A model generated the notes under the pieces. It worked only from the letters and a program-made list of their open reading frames with translations, searched no databases and had not been told where the DNA came from. Of a stretch of DNA of 41,988 nt, positions 799 through 10,177 are shown in pieces. Numbering within the stretch: the first letter of the stretch is position 1; each line of letters opens with the position of its first letter. The position numbers were made by a program, and so were the translations under genes. Origin of the DNA: Desulfuromonadales bacterium (lineage in GTDB: Bacteria > Desulfobacterota > Desulfuromonadia > Desulfuromonadales > Syntrophotaleaceae). The stretch spans positions 1-41,988 of the forward strand of contig JAUWLU010000003.1 of the NCBI GenBank assembly GCA_030613545.1, written 5' to 3'.

Positions 799-2922
799 CT
801 ACCCCGCCTTGCCGGAGAAATGACGCTGCAGAAAGAGCCCGGCCCGCTCAGCCGGTTGCGGGCGGCTAAAGTAATAACCCTGCACCTCCTCGCAACCGCA
901 GCGACGCAGGAATTCGAGCTGTCCCTCGGTTTCGACCCCTTCGGCACCGACCTTCAGCTTGAGGCTGTGGGCCATGACGACGATAGCCTCGGTAATGGCA
1001 GCATCGTCCGAGTTGGTGGTGATGTCACGCACAAAGCTGCGATCGATCTTGATGCGATCGATGGGGAAATACTTGAGATAGCTGAGCATGCTGTAACCGG
1101 TACCGAAATCGTCGATGGCCAGCTTGATGCCGCGTACCTTCAGGTCGGTGAGGGTCAGCAGAGTATCCTCGGAGCGTTCCATGACGATGCTCTCAGTCAG
1201 CTCTACCTCCAGATGCTCGGGGTCGAGGTCAGCCGCTTGTAAAATGTGGTTGAGGCGCTCGATAAAATCGGCCTGTTTGAATTGACGGGCGGAAATATTG
1301 ACCGCCATACGCAAATTGTGAAATCCCGCCTGATGCCATTGCCGCGCCTGCTTACAGGCCGTCTCCAGGACCCATTCGCCGATGGGCAGGATCAGCCCGG
1401 TCTCTTCGGCCAAGGGGATGAAGCGGGACGGCGGGATGCTGCCGAGCTCGGCGGAGTCCCAGCGCAGCAGGGCTTCCATTCCAATTACCCGGCCACTTTG
1501 CAGATCGATCTGCGGCTGATAATGGAGACTCAGCTCCCGGCGATCGAGGGCCTGCCGCAGGCGATTCTCCATCGCAAGGCGTTGGCAGGTGACGAGGTTC
1601 ATCTCCGGCGAATAGAAGCGGTAACTGCCGGTCCCCTGTTCCCTGGCCTTGTGCAGAGCGATGCCGGCATGCTTGATCAGGGTGTCGACATTGTCGCTAT
1701 CCGTGGGGTAGAGGGCCAGACCGACGCTCGCCGAACAGTAGGTCGGCTGCTGCTCCAGTTCGATCGGCTCGGCCAGGCAGTGCAGCATCTTCTGGGCACG
1801 GAGGGAAAAACTTTCCGGACCGTCGACCTGGGGCAGCACCAGGGCGAACTCGTCGGGCCCCAGGCGCGCCAGGGTTTCGCCCTTTTGCAGGCAGTCGGTC
1901 AGGCGCTCACTGACCACCTTGAGCAGCTGGTCGCCGACCTCATGGCCGAAGGTATCGTTGATGCCCTTGAAGCGATCGAGATCGAGGACCAACAGCCCGA
2001 CCTGGTTCCGCCCCGCCCGCTCCAGCACATCGCGGCAGCGATCCCGAAACAGCTGGCGATTGGGCAGCCCGGTCAGGGTATCGAAATAGGCCAGCTGACG
2101 AATCTCCTGCTGGGCCTTGTGATGCGGGGTGATGTCGTGCACCAGGCTGACGCAGAAGGTCACCCGCCTCTGGTCGTCGAACAGCCAACAGTTGGCCACA
2201 TGCCCCCAGACGGTTTCGCCATCCTTGCACAGGAAGCGCTTTTCGTAATCGACGGCCTGCCGCTGGCCGGCCGCCGCCTCGCTGAACAGGCGGCGGGTCA
2301 GGACAATGTCGGCGGGGTGGGTGATGTCGAAAGTGGTCTTGCCCAGCAGCTCCGCCTCCGTATACTTGAACATCTTGCAGAAGGCCGGATTGACCTGCAG
2401 AAAGCTGCCGTCGGCGGCAAGGGTCGCCATGCCGGCCACGGCATTGAGAAAGATGGAGCGGAACCGCCGCTCGCTCTCGCGCAACTCTTCCTCCGCCCGG
2501 CGGCGCCGGCGGCGCCCTTCGGCTTCGCGAAGCTCGCGATCGATGGCCGGCAGCAGACGGGCGGTGTTGCCCTTCATGACGTAATCGTGGGCACCGGCCC
2601 GCATCGACTCGACGGCGGTCTCCTCGCCGATGTTGCCGGACAGAACGATAAAGGGGATATCGAGACCGCTCTCCTTGAGCACCGCCAGGGCCGCCGGAGC
2701 ACTGAAATTGGGCATGGAATAGTCGGAAATGACAAGATCCCAGACCTGCTCGGTCATGGCGGCGGCCATGGCCTCGGCGGTGTCGACCCGCTCGTAGGTC
2801 AGCTCGTAGCCGGCCCGCTGCAGGCTACGCACCAGCAACCAGGCGTCGTCTTCGGTGTCCTCGACGATCAGCACCCGCAACGGCTGCTTGGTCGCTGGTT
2901 CTTTATTGATAGGATTGTTCAT
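799..2922 (-). CDS. REC-PAS-GGDEF-EAL protein (predicted c-di-GMP phosphodiesterase with degenerate GGDEF)
   Basis: REC domain LRVLIVEDTEDDAWLLVRSL; PAS segment; GGDEF domain with GPDEF signature; EAL motifs EALLRW, ELTES, IDDFGTGYSMLSYL, EGVET. Confidence 0.93.
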   Translation of the reverse strand: MNNPINKEPATKQPLRVLIVEDTEDDAWLLVRSLQRAGYELTYERVDTAEAMAAAMTEQVWDLVISDYSMPNFSAPAALAVLKESGLDIPFIVLSGNIGEETAVESMRAGAHDYVMKGNTARLLPAIDRELREAEGRRRRRRAEEELRESERRFRSIFLNAVAGMATLAADGSFLQVNPAFCKMFKYTEAELLGKTTFDITHPADIVLTRRLFSEAAAGQRQAVDYEKRFLCKDGETVWGHVANCWLFDDQRRVTFCVSLVHDITPHHKAQQEIRQLAYFDTLTGLPNRQLFRDRCRDVLERAGRNQVGLLVLDLDRFKGINDTFGHEVGDQLLKVVSERLTDCLQKGETLARLGPDEFALVLPQVDGPESFSLRAQKMLHCLAEPIELEQQPTYCSASVGLALYPTDSDNVDTLIKHAGIALHKAREQGTGSYRFYSPEMNLVTCQRLAMENRLRQALDRRELSLHYQPQIDLQSGRVIGMEALLRWDSAELGSIPPSRFIPLAEETGLILPIGEWVLETACKQARQWHQAGFHNLRMAVNISARQFKQADFIERLNHILQAADLDPEHLEVELTESIVMERSEDTLLTLTDLKVRGIKLAIDDFGTGYSMLSYLKYFPIDRIKIDRSFVRDITTNSDDAAITEAIVVMAHSLKLKVGAEGVETEGQLEFLRRCGCEEVQGYYFSRPQPAERAGLFLQRHFSGKAG

Positions 2923-3343
2923 TGAGCTTCAGCCAATAGTTGCCCAGCTGCCCGACGGTATCGAGGAAGCAGTTGAAATCGACCGGCTTGCGAATATAGC
3001 TGTTGGCCCCCAGCCGATAAGCTTCCGCCAGGTCCCGCTCTTCCCGCGAGGAGGTCAGAACCACCACCGGCAGCAGACGGGTGCGCCGGTCAAGCCGCAG
3101 CCGCTCCAGCACCTCCAGGCCGTCGACCTTGGGCAGCTTCAGGTCGAGCAGCACCACAGCCGGCAGCTCCCAATGCTCGCGGTCGGCATGCTGACCGCGG
3201 CCGAACAGGTAGTCGAGGGCTTCGACGCCGTCGCGGGCCACCACCACCGGGTTGGCGATCTTGTTCTTGCGAAAGGCCCGCAGGGTCAGGGCTTCATCGT
3301 CCGGGTTGTCTTCCACCAGCAGGATGTTTTTTTCCGTGTTCAT
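2903..3343 (-). CDS. Rcp1-type single-domain response regulator
   Basis: ILLVEDNPDDEALTLRAFRKNKIANPVVVARDGVEALDYLFGRG ... VVLLDLKLPKVDGLEVL ... VVVLTSS ... YIRKPVDF. Confidence 0.93.
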   Translation of the reverse strand: MNTEKNILLVEDNPDDEALTLRAFRKNKIANPVVVARDGVEALDYLFGRGQHADREHWELPAVVLLDLKLPKVDGLEVLERLRLDRRTRLLPVVVLTSSREERDLAEAYRLGANSYIRKPVDFNCFLDTVGQLGNYWLKLNEQSYQ

Positions 3344-3357
3344 GCCGATTATCCATT

Positions 3358-4938
3358 TTATAGAGCGAAGTAAAAGTTGGCGCCGATGCCCACCTCGCCA
3401 TCGGCCCAGACCTGGCCGCCATGGCGATGAATGATGCGCTGTACGGTAGCCAGGCCGATGCCGGTGCCTGGAAAGTCTTCAGCCCGGTGCAGGCGCTGAA
3501 AGACCCCGAACAGCTTGTCGGCATAGGCCGGGTCGAAGCCGGCGCCGTTGTCCCGCACAAAAAAGGCCCGATTACCGGGTTGGCCCCCTCGGCCCGACGG
3601 GAGCTTGTCGCTGCGGCCGAACTCGATGCGGGCATGGTCGCAGCGGCTGGTGAACTTCCAGGCGTTGCCGAGCAGGTTTTCCATCACCACCCGCAGCAGC
3701 CGGGCATCCCCTTCGGCCTGCACCTGGGACTGGATGACGATTTCCACTTGCCGCTGCGGCTCGGCCTGCCGCAGATCTTCGGCCACCAGGGCGGCCAAAC
3801 GGCTCAGATCGACCGGCGCCCGCACCATTTCGCCGCGGGTGATACGCGACAGGTTCAGCAAGTCGTCGATAAGCTGCGCCATGCGCTGCGAAGCGCGCCG
3901 CACCCGCTGCAAAAACTCCAGGCCTTCGGCATCGAGCCGGGCACCGTAATCGTCGAGCAGCGCCTGGCTGAAGCCGTCGATGCTGCGCAGCGGCGCCCGC
4001 AGATCGTGGGAAACCGAATAGGCAAAGGCCTCCAGCTCCTCATTAGCGGCCTTGAGTTGTGCGGTGCGCTCCAGCACCCGCTGTTCGAGTTCCAGATTGA
4101 GCTGGTATATTTCCCGCTGGGCCTGCTGATGCTCGCTGATCTCCAGGTGCAAGCGGGTGTTGGTATTCTGCAGCACCTTGGCCTGTTTTTCCAGGTCGCG
4201 CTGGGCCGCCGAAAGATGCTCGGACATCTGACTAAAGGCCCGAGTCAGATCGCCGACTTCATCCACCGCAGTCGATTGAGGCAGCGTCTTGTCCCAGTCG
4301 CCGTGACTGATAGCCAACGCCGCTTCCGAGAGCAGCTGTACCGGGGCGACGATGCCACCGGTAAACCAGACGAAGGCCAACAGGCCACAAGCCAGGCCCA
4401 CCAACAGAATCAAGGCCACCTGGCTGAGAAAGGCGTTGCGCTCAACCAACATCTCAGCTTTATCCACCGACAAAAGCACAACCCAGTGCCATGCCGGAAA
4501 GCTCGCGTAATAAACAAACCGCTTTTCTTTGCCATGGGAGCATTCCCTGAATCCCCGGCCCGTCTGTACTATCTCATCAAGGCACAGGGTATCGAGGTCG
4601 TGGTTCTTCAACAGTTGCGGCAGCAGTTGGCTGGAGCCGGGCTGTCCGAAAATCAGCAGCTGGCCGGTATGACCGAAACGATAGTCCCGATACTCTTCGA
4701 GGATGTCGGTCTGCGCCTTGTGCACGTAGCTGTCGACGGATGCCACGCCGCTTTCCGTCAGCACCTTGTGCGCACTGCGAATCTGCTCGACAAGGTGTAC
4801 AACCTCCGACTCCATCAACTTGCGGTTCATGCTGTAGGCCAGCCGCTCGATGGTAAATACGCCGGCGATGCTGATGGCGACGCCGACCACGATCAGGACG
4901 CCGAGGGCGAGCAGGTTGAATTTGTACTTCAGCTTCAT
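3358..4938 (-). CDS. membrane sensor histidine kinase (periplasmic Cache-like domain, HAMP, HisKA, HATPase_c)
   Basis: Two TM segments flanking about 150 aa; HAMP-like stretch; FAYSVSHDLRAPLRSIDGFSQ H-box; N-box VVMENLLGNAWKFTS; GNRAFFVRDNGAGFD; GTGIGLATVQRIIHRHGG. Confidence 0.93.
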   Translation of the reverse strand: MKLKYKFNLLALGVLIVVGVAISIAGVFTIERLAYSMNRKLMESEVVHLVEQIRSAHKVLTESGVASVDSYVHKAQTDILEEYRDYRFGHTGQLLIFGQPGSSQLLPQLLKNHDLDTLCLDEIVQTGRGFRECSHGKEKRFVYYASFPAWHWVVLLSVDKAEMLVERNAFLSQVALILLVGLACGLLAFVWFTGGIVAPVQLLSEAALAISHGDWDKTLPQSTAVDEVGDLTRAFSQMSEHLSAAQRDLEKQAKVLQNTNTRLHLEISEHQQAQREIYQLNLELEQRVLERTAQLKAANEELEAFAYSVSHDLRAPLRSIDGFSQALLDDYGARLDAEGLEFLQRVRRASQRMAQLIDDLLNLSRITRGEMVRAPVDLSRLAALVAEDLRQAEPQRQVEIVIQSQVQAEGDARLLRVVMENLLGNAWKFTSRCDHARIEFGRSDKLPSGRGGQPGNRAFFVRDNGAGFDPAYADKLFGVFQRLHRAEDFPGTGIGLATVQRIIHRHGGQVWADGEVGIGANFYFAL

Positions 4939-4942
4939 AAGC

Positions 4943-5983
4943 TCAATAGCCCTCTGCCACGACTGCAGCGGCCTTTCCGTAGGCCTCCTGGCCGATGACC
5001 TCCGCTGTCTGCAGCAAGGAAACCGGCAGGACGATACCCGCAGCCTTGGCCATCTTCAGGTTCACCACCAGCTGGGCCATCCGGTTGCTGACCACGGGCA
5101 CCTCTTCGGGCCGGGCACCGGCGAAAATGCGCAGAGCGGTGGCGGCGGCATATTCCCCCTGCTCCTCCGGTACCTTGGCCATGGTCAGGACATTGTAAGG
5201 TTTCATCCAGGGCAGCACCGAGCCGGTCGGAACGACCACGTTCTCTAACAGGAAGGCCTCGGCCGCCGCGGCATCCCAGTCGTTAATACCGGCATTATTT
5301 CTTACCAGCAGCACATCGACTTCCTGCTGCGCCAGCAGGAAGGCCCGCTTGAATTCCGCGAAGGAACGGACCAGATAGCGCTTTAGCCGGCCATCGAAAA
5401 GTTGTTGGTTATATTGGTCGGTAACAATCCGGGTCGTATGAACGTCCCCGCCCAGCACCCCGATACGGTCGCCCCGGGCATAACGGCTCAGATGCCTGAC
5501 CAGGCCCTCGACCAATTCGACCTCGGCCATGCCGGTCACGTTGCGGCAGGGATAGCCATAATGACCGGGATCGCGATTCACGCCGCAGAACACCACCGGC
5601 AAATCGGTGTCTTTGAGGTACGGAACCACCAGGTACCGCTGGGCATTATCGTCCGAGGCGATCACCAGGTCGGGTCGATAACGCGCGACAACAGCCCTGG
5701 CCCGCTGCCCGGCCAGCCGGCCATATTCTTCATCGCTGTGGCGTTTGGTATCCATACGCCAGACTTTCAGTTCCGCGCCGCTGCCGGCCAGCGCACCCCG
5801 AATGCCCCTTTCGAGCCCCTGGCTCCACTCGTAGCCGGCATGATAGGAATCGATCCAGAGAATTTTTTTGCCCCGGTAGCGTGACGGCGCTCGGCCATCG
5901 TCCGTGGCCGCCAGGCCTGGGCCGCAGCAGAGCCAGCCGAGCAGCAGCAGACAACCCCCTCCTAATACCCATCGCAACATCAT
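4943..5983 (-). CDS. ABC-type substrate-binding protein (PF04392-like), signal peptide
   Basis: Signal peptide; KKILWIDSYHAGYEWSQGLERGIRGAL ... RPDLVIASDDNAQRYLVVPYLKDTDLPVVFCGVN; paralogue of the next gene; RBS GGAGGG. Confidence 0.85.
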   Translation of the reverse strand: MMLRWVLGGGCLLLLGWLCCGPGLAATDDGRAPSRYRGKKILWIDSYHAGYEWSQGLERGIRGALAGSGAELKVWRMDTKRHSDEEYGRLAGQRARAVVARYRPDLVIASDDNAQRYLVVPYLKDTDLPVVFCGVNRDPGHYGYPCRNVTGMAEVELVEGLVRHLSRYARGDRIGVLGGDVHTTRIVTDQYNQQLFDGRLKRYLVRSFAEFKRAFLLAQQEVDVLLVRNNAGINDWDAAAAEAFLLENVVVPTGSVLPWMKPYNVLTMAKVPEEQGEYAAATALRIFAGARPEEVPVVSNRMAQLVVNLKMAKAAGIVLPVSLLQTAEVIGQEAYGKAAAVVAEGY

Positions 5984-6043
5984 ATCCCTCCACGGAGCCG
6001 CTCGGCGCTGTGCAGCTCCTGAGAAAACCGGTCTCCCGACCGG

Positions 6044-7081
6044 TCAGCGCAACGCCTCCTGGCCAATAACCTTGCTGGCCGCGTTGAGGGTGCTAATCGG
6101 CAGCACGATGCCGGCCGCCTTGGCCATCTTGAGGTTAAGGGTCAGGCTGGCCCGCTCGTTGGCGGCCAGCGGAATGGCGCCGGGAACCGCGCCGTCGAGA
6201 ATCCGCAGGGCGGTGCGCGCCGCCCACTCGCCCTGCTCTTCCGGCACCTTGGCCACGGTAACGATCACATAGCGCTCCATGTAGGCTAGGCGCGAACCGG
6301 TCGGCAGCTTGACGTGGCGGGCCAGAAAGTCCTCGGCCAGCGTCGAGTCCCAGCCGGGCATGTCGGAATGGTTGGCGATGTAGAGCATGTCGACTTCCTG
6401 CTGGGCGCGCAGAAAGAGTTCCTTGAATTGGGCGAAGTCTCTGGCCAGGTAGGATTTCATTTGGCCGTTGAAAAAGCGTTGGTTATAGGCGCTGACCACC
6501 TTACGCTCGGAGACGGTATCGGCACTCAGGTAGCCGAGGCGGTCGCCCTCGGCATAGCGCCGCAGGTGCCGGACCAGGGTCTCGACCGGCTCGACCTCCA
6601 CCATGCCGGTCACATTGCGGCAGGGCAAGCCGTAGGGAGAGGCGTCCCAGTTGATGCCGCAAAAGACCACGGACAGGTCCGTATCTTTCAGATGGGGAAC
6701 GATCAGATACTTGGCGGCGTTGTCGTCGGAAGCAATGACCACGTCGGGGCGAAATTCCTCGATCACCGCCTTGGCCTTGAGGGCGGCCGCCTGGCGGAAG
6801 CCCTCCTCGCGGTTCCATTTGGTATTCATGCGTTCGATACGCAACTGAACGCCGCTGTTTTGCAGAACCTGGCGAATCCCCCGTTCGATGCCGGCCGTCC
6901 AGGCATAACCTTCGTGGTAGGAATCGACCCAGAGGACCTTTTTGCCCGGGAAAGATCCACGGGCGGGGGAAGGCCGTTCGCCGGCCGCCGGACCGACGCA
7001 GAGCAGCACCGCCGCCAGGGCGGCCCACAGCCCTATCCAGAGCATCCGTCGCTTCAGCCTGCTGTTCGCCATCCGGAGCAT
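6044..7081 (-). CDS. ABC-type substrate-binding protein (PF04392-like), signal peptide
   Basis: ORF 6044..7120; start at 7081 preferred (GAGG six nt upstream). KKVLWVDSYHEGYAWTAGIERGIRQVL ... RPDVVIASDDNAAKYLIVPHLKDTDLSVVFCGIN. Confidence 0.85.
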   Translation of the reverse strand: MLRMANSRLKRRMLWIGLWAALAAVLLCVGPAAGERPSPARGSFPGKKVLWVDSYHEGYAWTAGIERGIRQVLQNSGVQLRIERMNTKWNREEGFRQAAALKAKAVIEEFRPDVVIASDDNAAKYLIVPHLKDTDLSVVFCGINWDASPYGLPCRNVTGMVEVEPVETLVRHLRRYAEGDRLGYLSADTVSERKVVSAYNQRFFNGQMKSYLARDFAQFKELFLRAQQEVDMLYIANHSDMPGWDSTLAEDFLARHVKLPTGSRLAYMERYVIVTVAKVPEEQGEWAARTALRILDGAVPGAIPLAANERASLTLNLKMAKAAGIVLPISTLNAASKVIGQEALR

Positions 7082-7499
7082 AGAGCACCTCAAAACAAGG
7101 TTTTGCTGCTCATTTCGCACACTGGAAACGGCCCGTTTTTGAGGCCATAGAGTTGCTGCCGCTCAATGACCGTAAAGAAAAAATGCGGATACCGTTTATA
7201 ATAAAACAAAACATTATTTTGCCATCTGCCCACAAAAGGCAACCTAAATATCCTTCATGCGCCCACTTCAAACCGAAAGAGCCATATCTTTTCTGCCGTC
7301 ACAATATGTTGGAATCACCAAGAAAAAAGCGGCCAGACGGCGGAAAAACATCGCTCTGGCGCATTCGATTAGGCGCATTGTGAAACCGCGGACAAAGCCA
7401 AGCAGCACCAGCAGTCCCAGCAACCCGAAGGGGTGGCGTCAGCCCGGCCATCGCCGGTGACAAATCTGGCCCCTGGCCAGTCTTCATGTACTGCCGGGT

Positions 7500-7542
7500 T
7501 TGACAAGGCGCCACTCAAAAATGTATTAGATTAGAGCTAATA
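7500..7542 (+). promoter_or_regulatory. putative sigma-70 promoter with overlapping dyad, upstream of the bd-like operon
   Basis: TTGACA (7500-7505), 18-nt spacer, TATTAG (7524-7529); dyad TATTAG-N7-CTAATA (7524-7542). Confidence 0.45.
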
Positions 7543-7565
7543 GACTTTTTCTCCCGGGAGAGCGC

Positions 7566-9116
7566 ATGAACTATCCGGTTTGGTACCTGCCGACCATCGG
7601 CGGCGGCACCCTCATCGCCCTGATCGCCATCGGTCATGTCTTTGTCGCCCACTTTGCCGTCGGCGGCGGCCTGCTGCTGGCCTTGAGCGAACAGCTGGCC
7701 CGAGGGCGCAACGATGCCGGGCTGCTTGCCTTCAACAGACGCTTCGCCCGTTTTTTCGTCCTCTTGACCCTGGTCTACGGCAGCCTTACCGGGGTCGGCA
7801 TCTGGTTCGTCATCTCCCTGGTGCAGCCGGGCGGCACCTCGCTGCTCATCCACCAGTTCGTCTTCGCCTGGGCGGCGGAATGGGTCTTCTTTCTGGTCGA
7901 GATTGTCGCCATCTCGGTCTACCTTTATTCCTTCGACCGCATGGCTCCCGCTGTGCACCAGGCGGTCGCCTGGATCTACTTCGGCGCTGCCTGGTGCAGC
8001 CTGTTTATCATCAACGGCATCATCTCCTTTATGCTCACCTCGGGCAGCTGGACCACCGACCGCTCCTTCTGGAGCGCCTTTTTCAATCCCGGCTTCTGGC
8101 CCTCCCTGGCCTTCCGCACCCTGATCGCCATCATCCTGGCCGGGCTGTTTGCGCTGCTGTTCTGCTCCTTCAGCAAGGATCGCAGTCTGCGTCGGCGGCT
8201 GGTGCGCTACGGCTGCGGCATGGTGCTGCCGGCGCTGCTCGGGGCCGTGCCGGCGGCCGGGTGGTATCTGCACAGTCTGCCCGAGCCGGCCAGGGAACTG
8301 GTCGGCGGCGGCTCGCCGACTATCGTCCGCGCCCTGCACTGGGGCGGCAGCGGCGCCATCGTCCTGACCCTGATCCTGCTCTTTAGCCTCTGGCAGCCGG
8401 CCCGCCACAACCGCGCTCTGGCGGGCCTCGCTCTGGCCGCAGCGCTGGTGTTGATGGGCAGCTTCGAGTGGATCCGGGAGGCGGCAAGGCGGCCCTTTGT
8501 TGTGCAGCAGGCGATGTTTTGCAACGGCATCGCAACCGCTCAACTGCCACAGCTGCAGCAAGGTTTTCTACCTGCGGCGCGCTGGAGCCGGGTGCGCCAG
8601 GTCGCTGCCGACCCGCTGGCGGCGGGCCGTGAGCTGTTCAAATTCCAATGCTACTCCTGCCACACCCTCGACGGCATCAACAACGACCTTCGCCAGCGCA
8701 CCGACGCGCTGAGCCAAGAGGCCCTGGCCGGCTACATCGGCGGGCTGCATAAGGCCCGCTATTTTATGCCGCCCTTTGCCGGCAACGATGGCGAGCGTCA
8801 GGCTCTGGCCGCCTTTCTGACCGGCGGCCTGTTCCCCGCCTTCGAAGGCCCCGCCGACACGCAGGGAAAAACGCTCCAGGACCAGTTTCTTTTTGAACAG
8901 AACTGCACCCTGTGCCACAGCACCGAGTTGGTCAGAAACCGCACCGCCGGCTGGACGAAAAACCGCATCCGCAGCGCCCTCGACCACCTCAACCGGCTCC
9001 ATCCGGCCATGCCCGACTACAAAGGGACACCGAATGAAAAAGATCGCCTGGCCGACTATATTCTACGCCTGAATCAGCCGGCCGCTCAGCAGCCGGCCAA
9101 GGGAGTCACTCCATGA
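7566..9116 (+). CDS. CydA-like membrane subunit fused to C-terminal c-type cytochrome with two CXXCH sites (atypical cytochrome bd-family complex)
   Basis: N-terminal TM pattern resembles CydA (GHVFVAHFAVGGGLLLALSE; FARFFVLLTLVYGSLTGVGIWFVI; WVFFLVEIVAISVYLYSFDRM; HQAVAWIYFGAAWCSLFIINGIISFML); CYSCH at 8649-8663 and CTLCH at 8904-8918. Confidence 0.8.
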   Translation: MNYPVWYLPTIGGGTLIALIAIGHVFVAHFAVGGGLLLALSEQLARGRNDAGLLAFNRRFARFFVLLTLVYGSLTGVGIWFVISLVQPGGTSLLIHQFVFAWAAEWVFFLVEIVAISVYLYSFDRMAPAVHQAVAWIYFGAAWCSLFIINGIISFMLTSGSWTTDRSFWSAFFNPGFWPSLAFRTLIAIILAGLFALLFCSFSKDRSLRRRLVRYGCGMVLPALLGAVPAAGWYLHSLPEPARELVGGGSPTIVRALHWGGSGAIVLTLILLFSLWQPARHNRALAGLALAAALVLMGSFEWIREAARRPFVVQQAMFCNGIATAQLPQLQQGFLPAARWSRVRQVAADPLAAGRELFKFQCYSCHTLDGINNDLRQRTDALSQEALAGYIGGLHKARYFMPPFAGNDGERQALAAFLTGGLFPAFEGPADTQGKTLQDQFLFEQNCTLCHSTELVRNRTAGWTKNRIRSALDHLNRLHPAMPDYKGTPNEKDRLADYILRLNQPAAQQPAKGVTP

Positions 9117-10177
9117 ACCCGCTGATCCCCCTGCCGGATCCCATTCCCGTCGCCTGGGGCTACCTTCTCGCCCTTCTGTTGCTGGTTTTCTCTCTGCATC
9201 TGCTGTTCATGAACTGCCTGCTCGGCACTACGGCGGTAACTCTCTACCTGCAACGCCGTTCCGACGCCGTGGCCAACCGACTGGCCACGGAACTGAGTCG
9301 CGCCCTGCCGCTGCTCATGGCCTTCACGGTCAATCTCGGCATCGCCGCCCTGCTCTTTCTTCAGGTCCTGTACGGCCAGTTTTTCTACACCAGTTCGATC
9401 CTCATGGGCAGCTACTGGCTGGCCATCATCCCCCTGCTGATCCTGGCCTACTACGCCCTCTATTGGGTCGATTTGCGCTACCGGCGCCTTGGCCGACAGC
9501 GCTGGCTGCTGCTGGCCGGCGTGCTGGCCCTGTTGCTGGCGGTCCCTTTTCTGTTCAGCAACAACATGACCCTGATGCTGCATCCGCAGCGCTGGTCAGG
9601 CTACTTCGACCAAGACAACGGAACCCTGCTGAATCTCGCGGACCTCACCTTATGGCCCCGCTACGCCCATTTCATTGCCGCCGCCCTGGCGGTCGGCGGC
9701 CTGTTCACGGCCACCCTGGGCCGCTGCTATCGATCGAGGGCTCCCGAACTGGCCGCCTATGCCCGGAACCTCGGCATGACCCTGTTCAGCCGCCTGACCT
9801 TGCTGCAATTACTGATCGGCCCGCTGTTTCTATTCAGTCTGCCACAGCCGCTGCGCTGGCAGATCCTCGGCGATTCGCCCCTCGCCACCCTGCTGCTGAC
9901 CACCGCCCTGGCCCTGCTGGCGGCCTTGCTGGTCAACGCCTTTCAACAGCGAGTGCTGACCAGCCTGGCCCTGCTGGTTCCCCTGGGCTGCTGCATGGTC
10001 GCGCTGCGGGCCTGGCTGCGCAGCGCCTTTCTGCAACCGCACTTCACCCTCGACCAGTTACAGGTCGTCCCCCAATATTCCCCCCTGTTGGTCTTTGTGA
10101 TAGTCCTGTTGTTCGGCAGCGCCCTGATTGGCTGGCTGCTCTACCAGGCCACAAGGGCAGCCCGTCAGGACATGTGA
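9113..10177 (+). CDS. second CydA-like multi-TM subunit of the bd-family complex
   Basis: Overlaps the previous gene by 4 nt (ATGA). Many TM segments; MAFTVNLGIAALLFLQVLYGQFFYTSSILMGSYWLAIIPLLILAYYALYWVDLRYRRLG resembles the CydA TM2-TM4 layout. Confidence 0.65.
   Translation: MNPLIPLPDPIPVAWGYLLALLLLVFSLHLLFMNCLLGTTAVTLYLQRRSDAVANRLATELSRALPLLMAFTVNLGIAALLFLQVLYGQFFYTSSILMGSYWLAIIPLLILAYYALYWVDLRYRRLGRQRWLLLAGVLALLLAVPFLFSNNMTLMLHPQRWSGYFDQDNGTLLNLADLTLWPRYAHFIAAALAVGGLFTATLGRCYRSRAPELAAYARNLGMTLFSRLTLLQLLIGPLFLFSLPQPLRWQILGDSPLATLLLTTALALLAALLVNAFQQRVLTSLALLVPLGCCMVALRAWLRSAFLQPHFTLDQLQVVPQYSPLLVFVIVLLFGSALIGWLLYQATRAARQDM

Follow-up and report, generated by a model that had tools for sequence, protein, structure and literature searches.

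A CydA-like subunit with a di-heme cytochrome c tail and a neighbouring CydA paralog: a conserved gene pair of the cytochrome bd superfamily in a Desulfuromonadales bacterium

According to papers that cite it, the survey of Murali, Gennis and Hemp (2021, ISME J 15:3534) covers the OR-C family of the cytochrome bd superfamily; it reportedly describes a c-type heme in the OR-C subunit. In archaea, the enzyme CydAA', which reportedly uses quinol, is made up, or presumed to be made up, of two paralogs of the CydA superfamily. All bd-type cytochromes biochemically characterised until then were quinol oxidases according to a 2021 review (PMC8509429). This review and PMC10839748 also describe bd families that lack a quinol site and for which cytochrome c is the presumed donor, and OR-C, a type already recognised from genome surveys, appears in both papers and in PMC13189123. 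A complex of OR-N1 and OR-N2 was proposed for nitrite oxidisers (PMC10839748, PMC12342949). In the literature searched on OR-C with Geobacter, Desulfobulbus-type bacteria and octaheme cytochromes, we found no description of the gene pair presented here.

The pair lies in a stretch of 41,988 nucleotides (the window, meaning the whole of the DNA analysed) and consists of two ORFs at exactly the coordinates given in the initial annotation, the end of gene 1 overlapping the start of gene 2 in ATGA. Because the flanking genes on both sides are on the opposite strand, the two form a unit of their own.

7566..9116, + strand: gene 1, CydA-like subunit with a di-heme cytochrome c tail, 516 aa (Pfam, AlphaFold, Foldseek)
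9113..10177, + strand: gene 2, a further CydA-like subunit of 354 aa with nine helices and without c heme (hhalign, AlphaFold, Foldseek)

Gene 1 belongs to the bd superfamily, by its homology to CydA and its active-site heme ligands. Residues 17–223, in its N-terminal half, match the CydA model PF01654 above the cut-off (36.9 bits), and two matches to CBB3-type cytochrome c (PF13442, 59.7 bits) were obtained. Significant Foldseek matches of its AlphaFold model (pLDDT 88.6) are bd-oxidase subunits only, CydA chains coming first (E 1.8e-7). Ligands are numbered after E. coli CydA, whose residues 19, 99, 107, 186, 393, 441, 445 and 448 correspond to the numbering of the literature; conservation was counted in 94 core relatives of gene 1 and 12 more distant ones.

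7602..8489, + strand: membrane domain of gene 1, eight predicted helices, residues 13–308 (AlphaFold helices, loop charge pattern)
7635..7637, + strand: H24, equivalent of CydA H19, active-site heme ligand (invariant, 94/94 and 12/12 distant)
7878..7880, + strand: E105, equivalent of CydA E99, shifted by one residue (invariant, 94/94 and 12/12)
7899..7901, + strand: E112, equivalent of CydA E107 (invariant, 94/94 and 12/12)
8115..8117, + strand: R184, replacing the heme b558 ligand H186 (Arg in 94/94)
8478..8480, + strand: E305, equivalent of CydA E445, active-site heme ligand (invariant, 94/94 and 12/12)
8649..8663, + strand: first c-type heme motif, CYSCH, residues 362–366
8904..8918, + strand: second c-type heme motif, CTLCH, residues 447–451

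E305 and R308, the latter equivalent to CydA R448 and also invariant (94/94 and 12/12), were placed by aligning the RRP and RQP motifs. The description of gene 1 as a CydA-type protein with two CXXCH sites is thus borne out by the PF01654 match and by the position of both motifs, and the invariance of H24, E105, E112 and E305 rules out a loss of all ligands. The quinol side is lost: the H186/M393 pair that binds heme b558 was not found in gene 1 by alignment with CydA, and the loop between helices 6 and 7, the site of the Q-loop in canonical CydA, has only about 14 residues, the Q-loop being missing.

Gene 1 loops carry on average 2.1–5.6 Lys+Arg where predicted to be cytoplasmic, versus 0.1–1.8 in periplasmic inter-helix loops. 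Because of the eight helices and this positive-inside pattern, with the N terminus outside, the c domain is assigned to the periplasm. In the model, the chain would exit the membrane on the periplasmic side right after the helix bearing E305 and R308 and continue into the c-heme domain; in solved bd oxidases, the active-site hemes lie toward that same side. A plausible Met ligand of the CYSCH heme, conserved among relatives, is M401 in MPPF (8766–8768), and that of the CTLCH heme is probably M482 in MPDY.

No Pfam match above cut-off and no NCBIfam match was obtained for gene 2. We compared by hhalign profiles built from 94 gene 1 relatives, 91 gene 2 relatives, 20 CydA (plus E. coli) and 16 CydB. 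The gene 2 profile reached a probability of 97.7% to the gene 1 family, 68% to CydA (45% in the reverse direction) and 12–23% to CydB, in agreement with the initial annotation, which had called this protein CydA-like and not a clear CydB. Homology to CydA (hhalign, Foldseek) places gene 2 within the bd superfamily, and so does the tree; the annotation's proviso that an HMM search might place it elsewhere did not materialise. CydA chains of bd oxidases are the two best solved relatives of its AlphaFold model (pLDDT 95.4, nine helices), and CydB chains follow closely, so that the fold alone does not settle between CydA and CydB. We nevertheless regard it as highly improbable that gene 2 is a very divergent CydB, in an otherwise ordinary CydAB with a cytochrome c: it does occupy the usual place of cydB, and CydB chains are among the Foldseek matches of its model (5doq_B, TM-score by target 0.72), but in the profile comparison gene 1 and CydA score far better than CydB, and gene 2 has His residues that align with H19 and H186 of CydA.

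9197..9199, + strand: gene 2 H29, equivalent of CydA H19 (91/91, local hhalign alignment)
9668..9670, + strand: gene 2 H186, equivalent of CydA H186, heme b558 ligand (89/90)
9995..9997, + strand: gene 2 M295, conserved Met, possible heme ligand (88/89)

R299 is likewise (nearly) invariant, and Q84 occurs often. The positions of E99, E107 and E445 are non-acidic in gene 2 while His is kept at those of H19 and H186, the reverse of what is seen in gene 1; without these acidic ligands, gene 2 is therefore a paralog lacking a full active site. In a distant branch, the gene 2 homolog carries two c-type hemes and the gene 1 homolog one (di-heme gene 2 homologs at L131:2919-4490, L132:2860-4419 and L137:6444-7997). 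Two gene-2-like proteins of 329–342 aa (L138:4692-5681, L140:2061-3089) have Phe at the H29 position and keep H186; no gene 1 homolog was seen within the fetched stretches around them.

A search of 84,980 species genomes gave at least 580 gene 1 relatives. In 77 of the 80 loci kept from this search, gene 2 adjoins gene 1; in the three others (L073, L093, L113), the stored sequence breaks off at gene 1, on the flank that gene 2 would occupy. Such recurrence is far beyond chance, and gene 2 is an obligate neighbour of gene 1. Strong matches to gene 1 and gene 2 occur in 25 and 26 genomes, respectively, of a phylum sample of 148, and in the single genome with gene 2 only, that gene starts 98 bases from a contig end; both genes mark the same 20 genomes among 58 closer relatives. 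Distances within the two families are correlated over 69 pairs (r = 0.85; maximum 0.21 in 2000 permutations), which reflects joint inheritance and not physical contact, because host relatedness contributes. In the tree, gene 1, gene 2, canonical CydA and OR-N-like proteins of about 600 aa form separate clades, and branching is alike inside the first two. No neighbourhood is common to all loci of the pair; outside those bearing a cytochrome of the octaheme tetrathionate reductase (OTR) family, the neighbours are regulatory or housekeeping genes.

With canonical bd oxidases (CydAB, qOR), the pair shares the fold of subunit I and the oxygen-site ligands. It differs from them in that gene 1 lacks the heme b558 ligand, the Q-loop and the ninth helix, that c hemes are added and that a CydA paralog replaces CydB. 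The pair is thus not a qOR, having neither the Q-loop and H186/M393 in subunit I nor a CydB partner, the gene 2 profile being CydA-like. In having a CydA paralog where CydB would be, the pair recalls both CydAA' and the proposed OR-N1/OR-N2 complex. However, the pair is bacterial, bears c hemes and has no CydA-type quinol site, and so falls outside CydAA', an archaeal pair of CydA paralogs using quinol. Like the OR-N proteins of Nitrospira and Nitrospina, it lacks a quinol site, comprises two CydA-like proteins that are proposed to associate and probably has cytochrome c as donor (PMC10839748), but no c heme has been reported for the 14-helix OR-N proteins (PMC3578206), and the OR-N-like candidates of about 600 aa form a clade apart from genes 1 and 2. 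Other Desulfobacterota encode CydA-like proteins of about 580–730 aa without c heme (L121–L130, L133–L135, L158), which resemble the 14-helix OR-N type. The closest likeness is to OR-C: the core is CydA-type and keeps the oxygen-site ligands, the quinol site is missing, and cytochrome c is the presumed donor. Judged on the features reported for the family, mainly in papers that cite the survey, the CydA-type subunit, the C-terminal c-type heme and the missing quinol site of gene 1 are those of OR-C.

Because the oxygen-site ligands are kept, the quinol side is lost and a cytochrome c is attached, we consider it likely that the pair encodes a two-subunit cytochrome c:O2 oxidoreductase of the bd superfamily, of the OR-C type as described in the papers citing the survey. 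Electrons from a periplasmic cytochrome would enter the two c hemes on the gene 1 tail and then reach a heme pair held by H24, E105/E112 and E305, ligands whose equivalence comes from alignment, toward the periplasmic face of the membrane domain; O2 would be reduced there with protons from the cytoplasm, by analogy with characterised bd oxidases. Gene 2 would act as partner in the place of CydB, and may itself hold one or two b hemes, with H29 and H186 as ligands. In the Desulfuromonadales host, the enzyme would likely remove low levels of O2 with electrons of the periplasmic cytochrome pool. An O2-protective oxidase, as initially suggested, seems to fit the retained ligands, while the displacement of E105 by one residue from E99 would speak against an oxidase, and the OTR-family neighbour in Geobacter-type loci, described below, could point elsewhere.

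The initial annotation also considered electron transfer between the quinone pool and periplasmic cytochromes. A quinol:cytochrome c oxidoreductase (or the reverse) linking menaquinone to periplasmic multiheme cytochromes, in which gene 2 would provide the heme on the quinone side, has in its favour the His kept in gene 2 at the b558 position and the multiheme cytochromes fused to or beside gene 1 in many relatives, and the same idea was proposed for the bd-like proteins of Nitrospina (PMC3578206). This reading is nonetheless improbable in our view; it is weakened because gene 1 has neither the b558 His nor the Q-loop, though gene 2 keeps the His. Moreover, the Q-loop is absent from both subunits, gene 1 has no H186/M393 pair, and the invariance of the oxygen-site ligands would have no reason.

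Family searches showed that the host genome encodes a heme-copper oxidase; the cytochrome c:O2 oxidoreductase would therefore be an additional, perhaps protective, oxidase, not needed as the only one. The same searches found no canonical CydA in the host's fragmented assembly; three congeners have one. We rejected the idea that the pair is its hosts' sole oxidase, as each of the 20 carriers among the 58 relatives also encodes a heme-copper oxidase or a canonical CydA. Being compact, conserved and equipped with a cytochrome c, the two-gene unit would allow a direct test of a bd oxidase driven by cytochrome c.

Across relatives, the tail of gene 1 carries from 1 to 8 c hemes, in two arrangements. 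In one, gene 1 bears one to four single-heme domains and is followed by gene 2; in the other, gene 2 comes first and gene 1, mostly of 843–909 aa, combines one heme with a seven-heme module (within L082–L120, for example L084:2787-5444 and L117:8001-10643). Gene 2 is also first in L097, L107 and L114, where gene 1 has one heme. The fused module, found in many Desulfobacterota, has an N-terminal non-heme part with AWN[DN]LGMHC, for which a Pfam scan reported no model. A free-standing seven-heme protein of similar sequence lies beside gene 1 at L114:5613-7115, and L080:29-1786 encodes a nine-heme form of the AWN[DN]LGMHC-bearing cytochrome.

Six Geobacter-type loci (L048, L052, L054, L057, L058, L064) have an octaheme cytochrome directly downstream of the pair (L048:10923-12407, L058:7545-9128). 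These six cytochromes cluster together, and those of the two loci scanned belong to the OTR family (TIGR04315, 524–527 bits). A search of the window's host for this family gave no match, which is weak evidence since control genomes also gave none. In four loci with a multiheme-fused gene 1 (L085:10707-11336; also L086, L090, L092), the gene directly downstream encodes a small NnrU-like membrane protein (PF07298, 24.4 bits, just under the cut-off of 24.7).

The OTR family can reduce nitrogen oxyanions besides tetrathionate. This family and the NnrU-like gene, adjoining the pair in six and four loci, respectively, could suggest a detoxifying role in which the substrate of the bd-type site is another small molecule, such as nitric oxide, nitrite or peroxide. 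Such a role appears quite improbable, as the NnrU/OTR link is seen in few relatives only and is absent from the window, and the gene 1 heme ligands match those of O2-reducing bd enzymes. Within the preferred reading of a cytochrome c:O2 oxidoreductase, a tentative and rather doubtful extension is that the c-heme tail is an evolutionarily adjustable wire, which would link O2 reduction directly to the multiheme network for extracellular electron transfer of metal-reducing bacteria; it would take the form of 1, 2, 3, 4 or 1+7 hemes, or of a neighbouring OTR octaheme cytochrome, always with an obligate CydA paralog as partner. The variation in heme number offers a natural series for the study of how electron wires are attached to a membrane enzyme.

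Upstream of gene 1, the sequence suggests the following signals.

7500..7529, + strand: promoter-like TTGACA-18-TATTAG (read from the sequence)
7556..7562, + strand: ribosome-binding-site-like GGGAGAG directly before the gene 1 start (from the sequence)

Within the promoter-like stretch, TTTGACAA is shared without change by all five congeneric species in the comparison; a consensus promoter scan did not list TTGACA-18-TATTAG in its output. The palindrome-like TATTAG-N7-CTAATA 5' of gene 1 was considered as an operator and dropped: two congeners have similar arms with a shorter spacing, two others lack it, and a genome search yielded no second site. Divergent from the pair, a possible sensory unit may occupy window positions 2903–7120 (−), where two related ABC_sub_bind-type proteins (4943–5983 and 6044–7120, −) adjoin a histidine kinase (3358–4938, −) and a response regulator (2903–3343, −).
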